DNA of 64,000 nt, from positions 1 through 64,000 of the IMG/VR virus record IMGVR_UViG_3300028394_000055; one strand, 5' to 3'. Source of the DNA: a virus. Made by a program: the position numbers and the translations under genes. The notes under the pieces are model-generated. The model was not told the DNA's origin. It was given only the letters and a program-made list of their open reading frames with translations, and did no database searches. This document shows positions 14,907 to 23,334 of this stretch, one piece after another. Every line of letters starts with the position of its first letter. Within the stretch, counting starts at the first letter, position 1.

Positions 14907-17639
14907 ATGCATCTACCATTAGGTCCAAATGGATTACCTTTAGCAAACCTAGGTAATCCGTTATTTGAAGGCAACCGAAGATTTGTTGTAACTCTTAAAA
15001 ATTGGGAAGACAACGAAAGTTTATATTTGGATATGGAAACTTTAGGTGGACCATTACATATACCTAACAGAGTGGTTGAATGTTTAGATCGGAGACCATT
15101 AGAAAGAAATACCGATTATCTTTTAACATATGAAGAAGCCGTAGCATTATCCCATGATCCGAGAGTTTCTGCTGTTGAATTAAATCCTACTGATAGGAAG
15201 ATATCAATAACACGGCATAATTGGGCAACTACTTCAACTTTTAGTAAGGCATTTGCCCTTACCGGTACTGATAAAGATTGGGGATTATTTAGAACAAGAG
15301 CAAAAGTTAATCCTAATAATTGGGGTGGTGGATTATATACTCTGAACACCACTACTGTTTTATCAGATGCTTCGGGGAAAAATGTAGATGTAGTTATAGT
15401 GGACGGGGGACTACCATATCCTGTAACACTAGAATACGCACAAAATCCAGATGGTACTGGATATCCTAGAATGGTACAATATAATTGGAGGAATTACACT
15501 TTTCAAAATTATAGTTATGAAACTCATGAAAACGGTCACCAAGCACATACATCTGGAACAGTAGCAGGTAATACTCAGGGTCATGCTCGTGATTCTAATA
15601 TATATAATCTTACATATAACGATGGAATTGTACCAGTTACAAATTTTCATCAACGTAAACCTGTTAATCCTTTAACAGGATTTAAAAATCCCACAATAAC
15701 AAACAACAGTTGGGGATATTCAAGCAGTATTACTTATAGTGATTTAAAATCATTTACATCAAGAATTCATTATAGAGGAGTTGATTATTATCCCGTTAGT
15801 GGTAGTCTAGGTACCTATGTATGGAATGATGCAGATATTCAAAGTTATGGAATACCTCGACTATTTGGTAATGGATTTCCTGCGAGAGATTCAGGAACAG
15901 ATGCTAATTTTATTGATGCTGCTAAGGCAGGAGTTATTAATGTATGTTCAGCTGGAAACAGTTTTTTTCATATAGCCAAACCTAGTTCTAATCCAAATGA
16001 TGATTATAATAATTATGCAGTATACGACGGTAATGTTGTCTATTATCATAGAGGATCTAGTCCGGGTTCTGCGGATGAAGCAGCTAGCTCCAACTACAGT
16101 TTAGATTATTCTCCTATATGTGTTGGTGCCGCCGGAGCAGTAAAAACAGGACCAACAAGTAGTCTTACCATTAACTATGTATTTGGTCTTGGAGGAGGCT
16201 ATACAGGGTTACTGTCAACTGATTATAAATCAGAATTTTCAAACTATGGACCACGAGTCGATGTATTTGCTCCAGGAGAATGTACATTAAGTGTAATTGA
16301 TACTACTTCTTATGCATCAGGAGTCGTTAATGATCCACGAGCAGCAACATTAGGAATTACAGATACCTATAATAAATTTGGCAGAGATGCAGGCACTAGT
16401 ATGTCATGTCCGCATGTTTGTGGAGTACTAGCATGTGTATTAGAAAAATATCCAAGGATGCGTCAACCTGAAATTCGTAAATGGATAGCATCTGTATCGT
16501 TACCTACTTTAGGTAGCACTACTGGCGGCGCCGGAGATGGCACCGATGCGGGATTTCTATCTTGGTCAACTTCTAGTAATCAAAATATGATATTTCAACA
16601 AGGAACACGAGTAAAGGAAGCAGAAGTTGGAGGATTATATCCTACTCCCTATCCTATAGCAAATTCTAGTTATAGAAGAACTAGCGGACAAGTATGGCCA
16701 AGAACTTCGACTCTTTTTGCATACAATAATAAAGCAACCTTATCGTTAACTTCAGATAAAATGAACTTAACTACTGGCGAGTCCGCTACAATTAGTTTAG
16801 CAACAACAAATTTACCTAATGGTACCCTTGTTTCTTATATTATTTCAGCTAGAATGTTAATAAGCTCAACTTTAGTAGAAACCAACGCAGTTTCAGGAGT
16901 TGCTACTGCTAGTAGTTTTATGACTGGATCAATTACAGGCTTTAAAACATCTCCAAACACTGGTAATAGAATTACTACCACAGGTTCTGGTATAGGAACA
17001 AGAACTTCAATTACAAATAGTTTGCTAGGTGCAGCATCACTAACTGCATCAACTACTCCGAGTAGCGGAAGCGTTGATGATGGATATTGGACATTAAGTT
17101 TGCCTTTTAGTATCACATTTGATGGTACTAGTTATTCTTCAGTATACGTAGGAACAAATGGTTATATAACATTTGGTAGTGGATCAACCGCGTTTCAGTC
17201 TATTAGTAGCAGTAATCCAATATACCCAAAAATATTAATATCTGCAGCAGATCACTCAACTCAACGTATATATTATGGTATAGAAGGTTCTTCTCCTAAT
17301 AGAACATATAGAGTAAGAGTGGAAGGATCTACTGGATACTCTGGCACCATAGGATCCCCTACTAAACTTTATGAGGCAATATTTTATGAAAATACTCCTA
17401 ATCAGATAGATATTCAAATGGGAGTAAATAATGCTTGGGGCATACAAGGAGCAGCATATACTTTCTTACCCGGTGACATAAATAATGACCCGCTAACTGG
17501 AGTGTTTACTGTTGATGCCAACGGTGCTGCCATTCTTCCGTATCCTTTAACAATAACGACTGGTAATTCATATGAGTTGTATGTACGCACAGGCACATTT
17601 CCGGCTGCGTCAGTGAAAATAATAGTTAATCAGCACTAA
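14907..17639 (+). CDS. Subtilisin-like serine protease with adhesin-like C-terminus
   Basis: 910 residues. The S8 catalytic triad can be placed: D166 in VVIVDGG, H211 in ENGHQAHTSGTVAG, S498 in GTSMSCPHVCG. The oxyanion Asn lies in VCSAGNS. There is no signal peptide or clear prodomain cut. Residues after ~600 are beta-rich and Ser/Thr-rich (YVGTNGYITFGSGS, YRVRVEG), resembling surface adhesion modules. Next to structural genes, it may be a virion protease acting on host surface proteins or on virion maturation. The triad is direct observation; the role is inference. Confidence 0.88.
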   Translation: MHLPLGPNGLPLANLGNPLFEGNRRFVVTLKNWEDNESLYLDMETLGGPLHIPNRVVECLDRRPLERNTDYLLTYEEAVALSHDPRVSAVELNPTDRKISITRHNWATTSTFSKAFALTGTDKDWGLFRTRAKVNPNNWGGGLYTLNTTTVLSDASGKNVDVVIVDGGLPYPVTLEYAQNPDGTGYPRMVQYNWRNYTFQNYSYETHENGHQAHTSGTVAGNTQGHARDSNIYNLTYNDGIVPVTNFHQRKPVNPLTGFKNPTITNNSWGYSSSITYSDLKSFTSRIHYRGVDYYPVSGSLGTYVWNDADIQSYGIPRLFGNGFPARDSGTDANFIDAAKAGVINVCSAGNSFFHIAKPSSNPNDDYNNYAVYDGNVVYYHRGSSPGSADEAASSNYSLDYSPICVGAAGAVKTGPTSSLTINYVFGLGGGYTGLLSTDYKSEFSNYGPRVDVFAPGECTLSVIDTTSYASGVVNDPRAATLGITDTYNKFGRDAGTSMSCPHVCGVLACVLEKYPRMRQPEIRKWIASVSLPTLGSTTGGAGDGTDAGFLSWSTSSNQNMIFQQGTRVKEAEVGGLYPTPYPIANSSYRRTSGQVWPRTSTLFAYNNKATLSLTSDKMNLTTGESATISLATTNLPNGTLVSYIISARMLISSTLVETNAVSGVATASSFMTGSITGFKTSPNTGNRITTTGSGIGTRTSITNSLLGAASLTASTTPSSGSVDDGYWTLSLPFSITFDGTSYSSVYVGTNGYITFGSGSTAFQSISSSNPIYPKILISAADHSTQRIYYGIEGSSPNRTYRVRVEGSTGYSGTIGSPTKLYEAIFYENTPNQIDIQMGVNNAWGIQGAAYTFLPGDINNDPLTGVFTVDANGAAILPYPLTITTGNSYELYVRTGTFPAASVKIIVNQH

Positions 17640-19154: not shown

Positions 19155-19943
19155 ATGCAAATGATCGATGTAATGAAACGTTTAGCAGAGTTGGATAGTA
19201 AAAATCCTAGCATTGTTAAAGAAAACCAACAAGTAGAAGAATGTGGTATTATGCCTGAAATGGGTATGATGGGCGGCATGCCCGAGCGTCCTCCAATGCC
19301 AGCAAGCATCAATATGACAGCAGGTAGCGGTGATGAACTAAGCGACATGCTAGCAACTATTATGCAACTAGCAGGAAGAAAAGCACCAGGTGCTGAAGAG
19401 CCAATGGGTGCCGAACCGGCAATAGCATTAACTGCTGAACCAGAAATGGGCGGCGGCGATCCTGCATCTGATATGCGTTCCATGATTGATAAATTAAATC
19501 CTATGGATGGCGACGATCAGGGCCCGGACCAGGGAGGCGATGATGTTAGCGTAGCACACGGCGACTTTGACAATGACGGCGATCACGACATGGATGATCA
19601 CAAAGCAGAAAAAGATGAAGAAGAAACAGATGAAGGTCAGTACGATAATAGTCCATCTGATCCACGTAAGCCTCCTCCATTTGGTGCTAATCAGTTTGCA
19701 AATCAAGAAAATCAACCTGGCCAAGGTGATAGAATGGATGGCAATATGCCTAAGGCCACAATGGAACAACAATTGATGGCTGATTATAAAAAGTTTGTAA
19801 ATGAAGGCGAAGGAAAGACCATGAGTCGTGCAGCCAAAGGCAATGAAAAGTATGGTAAAGATGGTATGAAGGCACTGGCCAAATCTGGTAAAGAGGGAAA
19901 AGATCTTGATAAAATAAGAGACAAGTACAACAAGTACGATTAA
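19155..19943 (+). CDS. Acidic core-type protein with EF-hand-like loop
   Basis: 262 residues with three parts: a Met/Gly/Pro-rich first half (MMGGMPERPPMPAS), a strongly acidic centre, and a basic Lys/Gly-rich tail (KGNEKYGKDGMKALAKSGKEGKD). The centre contains GDFDNDGDHDMDDHKAE, where Asp spacing resembles a calcium-binding EF-hand/dockerin loop. Acid-rich, low-complexity proteins are typical of T4 prohead cores (gp67, gp68, IPs). A terminator follows. Confidence 0.7.
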   Translation: MQMIDVMKRLAELDSKNPSIVKENQQVEECGIMPEMGMMGGMPERPPMPASINMTAGSGDELSDMLATIMQLAGRKAPGAEEPMGAEPAIALTAEPEMGGGDPASDMRSMIDKLNPMDGDDQGPDQGGDDVSVAHGDFDNDGDHDMDDHKAEKDEEETDEGQYDNSPSDPRKPPPFGANQFANQENQPGQGDRMDGNMPKATMEQQLMADYKKFVNEGEGKTMSRAAKGNEKYGKDGMKALAKSGKEGKDLDKIRDKYNKYD

Positions 19944-19961
19944 TAGTTAATAGCAAATCCG

Positions 19962-19989
19962 AATAGCCTCTTCGGAGGCTATTTTTTTT
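19962..19989 (+). terminator. Strong intrinsic terminator
   Basis: AATAGCCTC and GAGGCTATT form a perfect 9-bp stem with a TTCG tetraloop followed by seven T. Confidence 0.93.
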
Positions 19990-19990
19990 A

Positions 19991-19997
19991 TTAAATA
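19991..19997 (+). promoter_or_regulatory. Late promoter box, leaderless type (PP-loop gene)
   Basis: TTAAATA directly after the terminator, 6 bases before the ATG at 20004. No Shine-Dalgarno. Confidence 0.55.
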
Positions 19998-20003
19998 TGC
20001 TCT

Positions 20004-20885
20004 ATGATACCGTTATATAAAAATAATTATGTTAGAACATCCGGCCACGGCACCTCTTTTACTGTAGAAATAGATCCGCTTTTTTCCAAAGTTGATAATT
20101 TTTATGTTGAAAGTTGTAAAGCGGCTAAAGAATTATACGATCTTAAACAAGGAAAATTTCATATACTTTATAGTGGGGGACTCGATAGCGAGCATTGTTT
20201 AAGTGTTTTTTTATCTTTAGGGATGGATGTAACTCCTGTTATTGTAAAATTAAATTCCGATTATAATTATCACGATATTAAATATGCTTTTGATTTTTGC
20301 AAATCAAAAAATATTAAGCCATTAATTATAGATATTGATTTTGATAAATTTGTAGAATCGGGGCAAATCTTCGATATATGTACAAAAATGAAATCAAGTG
20401 CGTTTGGAAGAGCACCAATAGCGTATGCTGCGGGACTATTAGATGGCACCGTAATTTCAGGAGACGGTGAACCATACGTTAAAAAAAATGAAGAAGATAA
20501 CATTTGGTATCTAACTGAAGAAGAAAATGATTTTTCTATATATAATTATTTTAAATTATATGGTATACATGGCACAACGCATTACAGTAGATTTACTCCA
20601 GAAATGTTTGCAGCCTTTATGATAGATCCAAGAATGGTAGAACTAGCAAATAATCAACATGTAGGAAAATTAAGCACATATTCGAGTAGAACAATTATCT
20701 ACAATAGATACAGTAATTTTGATCTGCAGCCGAGAACTAAGTATACTGGATTTGAAAAAATAATAGGGCACGATAATTTTAAAAATCACCCTGTTCTTGA
20801 AGAAATTGAAAAATTTGGAAAAAGCCATCAAGGAAATTATAAAATAAGTTATCAAGAATTTATGAAGAATTTTTATTTTCCTTAA
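20004..20885 (+). CDS. PP-loop ATP pyrophosphatase (N-type, QueC/AsnB-like)
   Basis: 293 residues. LYSGGLDSEHCLSVFL carries the SGGLDS PP-loop at residues 57-62, which binds ATP pyrophosphate and adenylates a substrate carboxyl or base. The family includes asparagine synthase, 7-cyano-7-deazaguanine synthase and thiouridylases. No QueC zinc-Cys cluster or tRNA-binding domain is seen, so the substrate is open. It overlaps tail-to-tail by 26 bases with the Rieske oxygenase gene, forming a two-gene metabolic island between packaging genes. Confidence 0.82.
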   Translation: MIPLYKNNYVRTSGHGTSFTVEIDPLFSKVDNFYVESCKAAKELYDLKQGKFHILYSGGLDSEHCLSVFLSLGMDVTPVIVKLNSDYNYHDIKYAFDFCKSKNIKPLIIDIDFDKFVESGQIFDICTKMKSSAFGRAPIAYAAGLLDGTVISGDGEPYVKKNEEDNIWYLTEEENDFSIYNYFKLYGIHGTTHYSRFTPEMFAAFMIDPRMVELANNQHVGKLSTYSSRTIIYNRYSNFDLQPRTKYTGFEKIIGHDNFKNHPVLEEIEKFGKSHQGNYKISYQEFMKNFYFP

Positions 20886-21702
20886 CCCATTTGCCAAAAT
20901 GAACACAATGATCTTCGTATCGATTCATTGGTTTTATTAATGGAAAATAATTACCTTTTTGCAATTCAGTAGTAGCAACATCTTCTTTAAATACCTGCTC
21001 AAGGGTTTCAAATAGATATCTCCTATCTGGACTTACAGATGGATCGTAATAAAATTGTGTAATCCATTTATAGCCATATTCGCTATTATAGTCGTCTGGA
21101 ATAACTGTATTAACCATTACAGCACCCGAAGCACCGTATTCAACAAATGTAAAAGGAAAAATATATAACCACCATCCACCGGGATGATGTTGTAATATCC
21201 AACCGTCTCCTTGATCTAATTTAATATCTTCTAAATTAATTTGCTGAGATAAAAACGGATGAATTCCGTTTTTGGAAACATGAAGTAAATCGGCTTCGGC
21301 GTCCATTAACCATAACCAACTACCTTTGCTTTCTCCTTGATATGAGTGACTATATACTAGATTTTTTTCTTTTTCTAAGTCATCAACCCATCGGTGATTG
21401 GGCTCTTGAAAATTTTTAAATACCAGTCCAGAACGTCCAACTGTAGCGTTGCCACATTGTAATTTTTTTGGATTATTAATAGGAGTACCATCTGCACTCC
21501 ATTTAAAATTATGAAATTTACAAGTTATATCTGTTACTTGATCACCTGTTGAATGCAATGGATACATCCTGTGAGGACAAAATCTATGAAATAAATTTGC
21601 TGTATTGTTGGTATAATTTAGAATATATTCTGGTAATACAAAATTACTATTCTTAGCAGATGATATATGTGCTAATATTTTTGGAGGATTATTGAATAAC
21701 AT
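20860..21702 (-). CDS. Rieske [2Fe-2S] non-haem iron oxygenase
   Basis: 280 residues. The Rieske centre is C42-x-H44 ... C61-x-x-H64 (FCPHRMYPLH, CKFHNFKW), with 16 residues between the halves as in ring-hydroxylating oxygenase alpha subunits. A second metal site is suggested by MDAEADLLHVSKNGIHP, with D138, H141 and H148. The His-His spacing is two residues longer than usual. Such enzymes hydroxylate or demethylate small molecules using an electron donor from the host. Substrate unknown. Confidence 0.82.
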   Translation of the reverse strand: MLFNNPPKILAHISSAKNSNFVLPEYILNYTNNTANLFHRFCPHRMYPLHSTGDQVTDITCKFHNFKWSADGTPINNPKKLQCGNATVGRSGLVFKNFQEPNHRWVDDLEKEKNLVYSHSYQGESKGSWLWLMDAEADLLHVSKNGIHPFLSQQINLEDIKLDQGDGWILQHHPGGWWLYIFPFTFVEYGASGAVMVNTVIPDDYNSEYGYKWITQFYYDPSVSPDRRYLFETLEQVFKEDVATTELQKGNYFPLIKPMNRYEDHCVHFGKWVKENKNSS

Positions 21703-21706
21703 AATA

Positions 21707-21713
21707 TATTTAT
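21707..21713 (-). promoter_or_regulatory. Late promoter box, leaderless type (Rieske gene)
   Basis: ATAAATA on the minus strand, 4 bases before the Rieske start codon, diverging from the terminase box at 21736. Confidence 0.55.
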
Positions 21714-21747: not shown

Positions 21748-23334
21748 ATGGGATCAAAAAACTTAGACGGGCAACTGGTAAAACGAGCCCACGCAACACA
21801 AAAATTTACAGAGCAAGATTTATTAGACCTCGCCTCTTGTCAAGATCCAATTGACGGCCCACACTACTTCTTAGAACATTTTTTCTATATTCAACATCCT
21901 ACTAAAGGTAAGTTATTATACGAACCTTTTGAATACCAAAAAAGATTAATTGATAGTTATCATCAAAATAGATTCAACGTAAATCTACTACCTCGTCAAA
22001 CTGGTAAGACAACTACAGCAGCAGGATATCTACTCTGGTTTGCTATGTTTGTGCCTGATAGTACTATTCTAATTGCAGCACACAAATATACAGGTGCTCA
22101 AGAAATTATGAATCGTATTAGATATGCGTATGAATTATGTCCTGACATGATTCGTGCAGGTGCTACAAGTTATAATAAACAAAGCATTGAATTTGAAAAT
22201 GGATCACGTATTGTTGCACAGACAACCACTGAAACAACCGGTCGTGGTATGTCATTATCATTACTATACGCTGATGAGTTCGCATTCGTTCCGCCTAACG
22301 TAGCCAGTGAATTTTGGACTTCAATATCACCTACGCTAGCAACTGGTGGTAAGGCAATTATTACATCAACTCCTAATAGTGATGAAGATCAATTTGCACA
22401 AATATGGAAAGAAGCCAACTATAAGTTTGACGAGTTTGGTGAAGAACAACGGGTAGGACGTAATGGATTCTTTCCATTTAGAGCATTTTGGCATGAGCAT
22501 CCAGACCGTGATGAAGAATGGGCAGCAACTGAACGTAGCCGTATCGGTGAAGAACGATTTAAACGAGAACACGATTGTGAATTCTTAGTCTATGACGAAA
22601 CACTGGTCAGCAGTATGAAAATGGCTGAGATGGTGGGAGATGAACCTAGTATGCGTATGGGCCAATGTCGTTGGTATAAAAAAATAAATCCAATGAGTAC
22701 CTATATGATAGCATTAGATCCTAGTCTAGGTACGGGCGGAGACCCTGCTGCAATTCAAATAGTTGAAATACCTAGTTTTGAACAAGTAGGTGAGTGGCAG
22801 CATAATTTAACAATTGTACAATCACAAGTCAGAATTCTTAGAGATATTTGTAATTACATTAATGATGAATGTGCAGCAAAAGGTGTACAATCTAGTATCT
22901 ATTACAGCATAGAAAATAATAGTGTAGGTGAAGCGGCACTAGTAGCACTTGAAGAAATAGGTGAAGAAAGTGTGCCGGGATTATTTCTCAGTGAGCCTAT
23001 TAAGAAAGGACATGTACGCCGCTTCCGTAAGGGATTTAACACCACACATTCTAGTAAAATTAATGCTTGTGCCAAGTTAAAATACCTATTAGAAAGTGAT
23101 AGATTACGCATACATTCTAAACCATTTATTAGTGAATTAAAAACTTACATTGCTAAAGGTATGAGTTTTGAAGCCAAAGTAGGGCATCATGATGACCTTG
23201 TTAGCAGTATGTTATTGGCAATACGTATGATATTGGTGCTACAAGAATGGGATCCTGCTATATATGACCGTATGCGTGAGGAAAGAGATGACGAATTTCT
23301 CATGCCCATGCCCATATATATTAGTCAGCATTAA
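21748..23334 (+). CDS. 17: Terminase large subunit, T4 gp17-like
   Basis: 528 residues. ATPase: Walker A LPRQTGKTT at residues 81-89, Walker B LLYADE at 172-177, coupling motif TSTPNS. Nuclease half: MIALDPSLGTGGDPAA with the first catalytic Asp, and HHDDLVSSML near the C-terminus. It docks on the portal, pumps DNA into the prohead and cuts concatemers. Length is a little below T4 gp17 (610). Confidence 0.96.
   Translation: MGSKNLDGQLVKRAHATQKFTEQDLLDLASCQDPIDGPHYFLEHFFYIQHPTKGKLLYEPFEYQKRLIDSYHQNRFNVNLLPRQTGKTTTAAGYLLWFAMFVPDSTILIAAHKYTGAQEIMNRIRYAYELCPDMIRAGATSYNKQSIEFENGSRIVAQTTTETTGRGMSLSLLYADEFAFVPPNVASEFWTSISPTLATGGKAIITSTPNSDEDQFAQIWKEANYKFDEFGEEQRVGRNGFFPFRAFWHEHPDRDEEWAATERSRIGEERFKREHDCEFLVYDETLVSSMKMAEMVGDEPSMRMGQCRWYKKINPMSTYMIALDPSLGTGGDPAAIQIVEIPSFEQVGEWQHNLTIVQSQVRILRDICNYINDECAAKGVQSSIYYSIENNSVGEAALVALEEIGEESVPGLFLSEPIKKGHVRRFRKGFNTTHSSKINACAKLKYLLESDRLRIHSKPFISELKTYIAKGMSFEAKVGHHDDLVSSMLLAIRMILVLQEWDPAIYDRMREERDDEFLMPMPIYISQH

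Follow-up and report, generated by a model that had tools for sequence, protein, structure and literature searches.

A Rieske oxygenase gene paired with a PP-loop enzyme gene in uncultured aquatic phages, often among fatty-acid-type biosynthesis genes

A convergent gene pair in the structural block of a T4-like phage

The stretch of DNA analyzed here (the window) comprises the initial 64 kb of an IMG/VR virus record of 92,631 bases. The gene content of the record is T4-like and includes tail sheath, tail tube, head closure, the terminase large subunit and UvsX. No DNA polymerase-like ORF was found in the 92,631 bases, as judged by ORF length and by eye, and the record is therefore probably a fragment. 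Within the structural gene block of the window, the plus strand encodes a PP-loop (N-type ATP pyrophosphatase-like) enzyme of 293 amino acids (20004–20885), and the minus strand encodes a Rieske non-heme-iron oxygenase of 280 amino acids (20860–21702). Both ORFs lie where an earlier note on this DNA had placed them and, as described there, their 3' ends share 26 bp (20860–20885). An acidic-looking ORF (19155–19943) flanks the pair on one side, and the terminase gene (21748–23334) adjoins it on the other. The G+C content of the two genes is 0.30 and 0.32 compared with 0.38–0.44 in the flanking genes, as expected for inserted cargo. We regard the pair as phage metabolic cargo, of a kind already known; as a rule, an auxiliary gene in a phage is a single copy of a host gene.

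A hairpin resembling an intrinsic terminator, with a 10 bp stem and a T tract, lies on the plus strand at 19961–19984. It has the longest stem of six terminator-like sites in 5.8 kb (2.9 expected), and to judge from its sequence it may end the upstream structural operon and separate the pair from it. Each gene of the pair is preceded by the hexamer TAAATA, at 19992–19997 on the plus strand (6 nt before the ATG of the PP-loop gene) and at 21707–21712 on the minus strand (4 nt before that of the Rieske gene). Of the 91 genes of the phage, 17 have this hexamer in the 30 nt upstream, where 1.2 would be expected from its genome frequency, an approximately 15-fold enrichment, and it is mostly positioned 4–9 nt before the start codon. 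The exact T4 late consensus, TATAAATA, was rejected as the element at the pair genes, as it occurs only five times in 92.6 kb and at neither start. The earlier description of late promoter boxes at both starts is thus correct if the box is taken to be TAAATA, but not in the sense of the exact T4 sequence. By analogy with T4-like phages we take the TAAATA box to be a late promoter, and the pair is probably expressed late.

Two other regions of this phage were noted. A 910-amino-acid subtilisin-like protease is encoded between the tail genes and head closure (14907–17639), and a dozen further loci have similar protease ORFs next to PP-loop genes (for example L115, 6157–7767). Positions 66367–83774 of the record (L038 and the start of L039), following tail-fibre-like genes, appear to form a second biosynthetic region, with genes that by eye resemble those for radical-SAM, carbamoyltransferase, NDP-sugar and methyltransferase proteins.

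The Rieske protein

The window Rieske protein matches the Pfam Rieske domain above its cutoff (29.8 compared with 20.3 bits). In an alignment of 25 sequences the [2Fe-2S] ligands, C42-x-H44-x16-C61-x2-H64, are invariant, and their spacing fits the C-x-H-x15–17-C-x2-H requirement. The mononuclear-iron motif, D138-x2-H141-x6-H148...D241, is likewise invariant in this alignment. Its iron ligands H141, H148 and D241 and the bridging D138 align with the site of carnitine monooxygenase CntA in a profile alignment. The H-x6-H spacing is unusual and characterizes the clade of the window protein, while the most divergent clade has H-x4-H.

The AlphaFold2 model (mean pLDDT 93) contains both the Rieske and the catalytic-domain folds, and its best Foldseek match in the PDB is CntA (E 3e-14, TM 0.71), with which the sequence also aligns over its full length in a profile search (E 1e-12). 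On the basis of the intact ligands, the full-length alignment and the fold match, the sequence and the model identify the protein as a complete oxygenase component rather than a Rieske ferredoxin alone. At E < 0.001 the fold is shared by just two other predicted structures of viral proteins.

CntA (PDB 6y9d) and the window protein have in common a Rieske domain and a catalytic domain with mononuclear iron. However, they are only ~17% identical, CntA is longer (~390 compared with 280 amino acids), and its mononuclear site has H-x4-H spacing where the window clade has H-x6-H. Unlike CntA, the phage enzyme is accompanied by no reductase partner gene and always lies beside a PP-loop gene. The second-best fold matches are SxtT and GxtA of the saxitoxin pathway, which are also short Rieske oxygenases and belong to a biosynthetic pathway. 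However, they are cyanobacterial enzymes with alkaloid substrates and are more distant (TM ~0.5, 15–19% identity).

Neither a Fer2-type ferredoxin (0 of 27) nor a CntB-type reductase domain was found in the virus records that carry the pair, and a phage-encoded Fer2 ferredoxin was accordingly rejected as the electron donor. If the Rieske enzyme is active, its electrons would thus come from the host. Rieske oxygenases often rely on redox partners whose genes are located elsewhere in the cell; with host donors thus possible, the lack of a phage Fer2 protein does not exclude membership in this enzyme class.

CntA being the closest solved structure by both sequence profile and fold, a CntA-like enzyme might break down quaternary amines of the host, or compounds like them, while the PP-loop enzyme recycles the nitrogen. 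The presence of TctC-type solute-binding proteins near 14 of 39 Rieske loci would fit such nutrient salvage. However, the low identity to CntA and the missing ferredoxin and reductase domains argue against it, and degradation would leave both the constant PP-loop partner and the acyl genes described below unexplained. We consider salvage very unlikely.

In the window phage, a gene for IscU (NifU_N) is located between those for two A-type Fe-S proteins (record positions 85940–86982; L039, 2940–3982), and these assembly genes could help mature the Rieske cluster. Among the matches listed, IscU genes were found in 10 of 110 loci without a Rieske gene versus 2 of 39 with one. IscU homologues recur in other phages with PP-loop genes.

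The PP-loop protein

The second protein of the pair carries the SGGLDS motif at residues 57–62 and an invariant lysine, K246. The SGGxDS signature is present in all listed partners of Rieske proteins with the exception of that in L012, which reads SGGSES. The AlphaFold2 model (mean pLDDT 91) has an alpha/beta HUP-like core. Its Foldseek matches include beta-lactam synthetase, LarE, asparagine synthetase, TilS and NMN/NAD synthetase, and profile and fold searches also return NAD synthetase and TtuA. Judged by its sequence and model, the protein is a member of the ATP pyrophosphatase superfamily, and the name PP-loop ATPase given in the earlier note is appropriate. Enzymes known from this superfamily transfer nitrogen or sulfur to a carbonyl that has been adenylated. 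However, the structural matches are distant (TM ~0.3–0.5), and the family is too divergent for a substrate to be assigned.

The best Pfam match is QueC (7-cyano-7-deazaguanine synthase), which falls below the cutoff (18.9 compared with 22 bits, E 1e-3). The two share the PP-loop core. However, the window protein has a longer C-terminal region and no cysteine after residue 126, and hence none of the C-terminal zinc-site cysteines that we take to be a feature of QueC. With the C-terminal domains of asparagine and beta-lactam synthetases it shares SGGxDS and a Foldseek alignment over its whole length, but at TM 0.4–0.5. The window protein is a single domain of 293 residues with no glutaminase domain and no match to the Asn_synthase Pfam domain; weak Asn_synthase matches occur in 14 of 29 members of the family.

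Conserved pairing in viral loci

A search with the Rieske alignment alone yielded 26 viral loci, and each of the 24 complete Rieske genes in them lies within 1 kb of a PP-loop gene. When the PP-loop family served as the query, further and more divergent Rieske genes came to light, every one of which is next to a PP-loop gene. In total, a PP-loop gene is no more than 1 kb away from each of the 41 complete Rieske genes, which come from 38 non-redundant uncultured viral loci; for 37 of these genes it is the immediate neighbour, and in the other four it is two or three genes away. Far from never co-occurring in relatives, the two genes are together in every case, which strongly supports the earlier proposal that they form a linked metabolic pair. 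The proposal also called the pair convergent. This describes the window, but it does not hold as a rule: ten of the 41 are convergent and most are co-directional. Among the 37 adjacent pairs the PP-loop gene is downstream and co-directional in 21, convergent in ten, upstream in five and divergent in one.

The phage regions in question are rich in PP-loop genes (56 of 468 ORFs in the regions from the Rieske search), which raises the question of whether both genes are simply cargo of variable regions with no joint function. The absence of co-divergence between the partners, described below, would also be consistent with this. However, 21 of 25 Rieske genes are immediately adjacent to a PP-loop gene compared with 65 of 387 other ORFs (a local background of 17%; p = 4e-12), and in the window the two lie together though the 64 kb contain no other PP-loop gene of the family. 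Conservation of the pairing in relatives and adjacency this far above background exclude a chance neighbourhood, and the lack of any joint function is the least likely of the explanations considered here. Among the matches listed, 39 of 149 non-redundant loci contain a Rieske gene, a proportion of these matches and not a population rate. As most of the loci lack it, the PP-loop family must have a wider role.

The identities among Rieske proteins and among their PP-loop partners are uncorrelated (Mantel rho 0.075, p 0.11, n = 42), and the two trees disagree. The window Rieske protein groups with those of L014, L015, L016 and L018, whereas its partner groups with PP-loop proteins of L122, L123, L040 and L126. 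In L012 the Rieske protein is 75% identical to that of the window while the PP-loop protein is only 25% identical, and the nearest PP-loop relatives of the window protein (46–55%) adjoin Rieske proteins that are only 35–37% identical, or none. Co-divergence was therefore rejected as proof of partnership. The uncorrelated identities and discordant trees indicate instead that the two enzyme classes have been brought together more than once, and such repeated re-pairing supports a complementary chemistry of the two enzymes. Perhaps the partner subfamilies set the substrate.

Distribution

No relatives of either protein were identified among 50,697 phage records, which include cultured phages, and plasmid searches gave no match. 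A pattern-limited scan of 84,980 cellular species genomes revealed no Rieske relatives, and in cellular genome contigs the PP-loop family gave only weak matches or probable phage contigs. On these grounds a cellular origin or operon context was rejected. Two weak Rieske matches labeled 'Acinetobacter phage' were set aside, as they look like bacterial contigs. Within the collections searched, the Rieske family appears to be confined to uncultured phages. Open-access full texts contained nothing relevant on Rieske oxygenases as phage auxiliary genes, and the remark in the earlier note that such enzymes are rarely reported in phages holds in the sources searched.

Phage-encoded lipid desaturases are already known from cyanophages (PMC5776448 as cited in PMC11480375) and from viruses of Lake Baikal (PMC7678222), and pelagimyophages carry fabF together with a desaturase (PMC7029224). 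These systems resemble the loci described here in placing fatty-acid-type genes in T4-like or aquatic phages. However, a search of PMC11480375, PMC7678222 and PMC7029224 found no mention of a Rieske gene, and these systems have no link to a PP-loop enzyme.

Acyl-type genes around the pair

The pair is carried by many uncultured aquatic phages, often inside fatty-acid-type biosynthesis gene clusters. Of 27 virus records with the pair, 24 encode a fatty acid desaturase (FA_desaturase), compared with 10 of the 31 that have the PP-loop gene but no Rieske gene (one-sided p 1e-5, or 6e-5 once near-duplicates are removed). The records with the pair but no desaturase include G002 (240 kb) and G005 (171 kb). 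In a less sensitive single-protein search, the desaturase query matched three of the 50,697 deposited phage records. Of 190 distinct PP-loop genes, 14 have an acyl carrier protein (ACP) gene directly upstream, and ACP is found in seven of the 27 records with the pair. The fullest set is in L136, where ACP, desaturase, AcpS, Rieske, PP-loop, FabZ, a second ACP and ketosynthase are encoded within 6 kb; every protein other than the PP-loop protein scores above its Pfam cutoff. Other neighbours of the pair or of PP-loop genes include radical-SAM enzymes, TauD, NMO-like proteins, a fatty-acid hydroxylase, and an AMP-ligase with SDR and BKACE. No desaturase, ACP, AcpS or ketosynthase was found in the 92.6 kb of the window phage, whose record is apparently incomplete, so the acyl reading applies to this phage by analogy.

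In the group of L014, L018 and L032 the pair instead sits by QueD and QueE. The earlier note suggested a link to DNA modification, and the pair might indeed supply phage DNA or tRNA with a modified nucleobase or a 7-deazaguanine derivative, with the PP-loop enzyme replacing QueC. The weak QueC similarity of the PP-loop domain fits this reading, as do QueD genes directly beside the PP-loop gene in three loci and preQ0-type genes (both QueD and QueE) near the pair in four of 39 Rieske loci. However, most pair loci have no preQ0 genes, and a TGT/DpdA-type gene was detected in none of 13 whole records, those with QueD and QueE included, although distant DpdA types may be missed. No QueC above the Pfam cutoff was found in the QueD/QueE records, the window PP-loop protein lacks the zinc site of QueC, and the window phage has neither TGT nor a complete preQ0 pathway. 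DNA base modification by a QueC/preQ0 route thus has little in its favour, and we consider it unlikely. The missing TGT argues against DNA modification, and the desaturases, ACP, AcpS, ketosynthase and FabZ point towards acyl or lipid-type chemistry.

Several related arrangements were observed. L066 (7756–10311) contains an operon of ACP, PP-loop, a small conserved protein (A7) and desaturase with no Rieske gene, and similar operons occur in L059, L060, L063 and L076–L082. The small proteins A7 and A8, encoded downstream of PP-loop genes, resemble GNAT acyltransferases by eye, but neither has a clear Pfam match (best E 0.012) or matches a solved structure, and the resemblance is given no weight here. 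TctC/Bug-type periplasmic binding proteins lie near PP-loop genes in L009 (8031–8762 and 9916–10725), L028 (4546–5529) and many other loci, some with signal-peptide-like starts. A single 52-kb phage record (G006) has ten desaturase-like matches (L027, 1–16828).

A proposed tailoring module

We propose, at a probability of roughly 0.45, that in these tailed phages the pair is a two-step tailoring module for an acyl or lipid-like molecule made by the phage, and we rank this ahead of virion-protein and nucleobase modification. Both enzymes keep intact sequence signatures. We infer that they act on one common molecule, and likewise its acyl origin, the formation of an amide, the order in which the enzymes act and the purpose of the module. 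The Rieske enzyme, with its CntA-like architecture, would hydroxylate, dealkylate or desaturate a small acyl or lipid-like molecule, perhaps while this is bound to acyl carrier protein, using electrons presumably supplied by host ferredoxin or flavin reductases. The PP-loop enzyme would then activate a carboxylate or carbonyl of this molecule by ATP-dependent adenylation, and the adenylated group would be replaced with nitrogen. An amide would be the most likely product.

A serious rival, albeit a somewhat improbable one, is that the pair modifies a virion protein such as a tail fibre and thereby alters adsorption or stability; the Rieske enzyme would oxidize a side chain and the PP-loop enzyme would form an amide or isopeptide bond. 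The asparagine-synthetase-like PP-loop enzymes include lasso cyclases, which form isopeptides. The genomic positions are also suggestive: in the window the pair has late-type boxes and lies in the structural block next to the terminase gene, in loci of the L009 and L026 type it follows small genes that by eye resemble tail-fibre repeats, and in phage Mosig a comparable island of hydroxylase, desaturase, acetyltransferase and MoaA-like genes lies by the tail fibres. However, many loci have no structural gene close by, and tailoring of a protein has no need of ACP, AcpS, ketosynthase or FabZ. Moreover, to our knowledge the substrates of Rieske oxygenases are small molecules.

The Mosig island, in the cultured T4-like Pelagibacter phage Mosig EXVC030M (L206), occupies 54–71 kb of its record, also contains a nitroreductase gene, and is a possible experimental model.

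Returning to the acyl or lipid-like product, a broader and more doubtful proposal is that large aquatic phages possess a hitherto undescribed biosynthetic system, its components shuffled into different combinations, with which they produce acyl natural products or modified lipids specific to phages during infection; the pair would be the most conserved tailoring unit of this system. The parts are ACP, ketosynthase, desaturases, PP-loop ligases, Rieske oxygenases and radical-SAM enzymes. In these phages a whole Rieske family is linked to a PP-loop family that is just as enriched in phages, and the partners are shuffled in the manner of natural-product pathways. Should the acyl-product reading prove right, phages would make their own lipids or signalling molecules via dedicated carrier-protein pathways. 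Such pathways would be a largely unexplored part of infection, and the pair would provide a compact, testable two-protein system.
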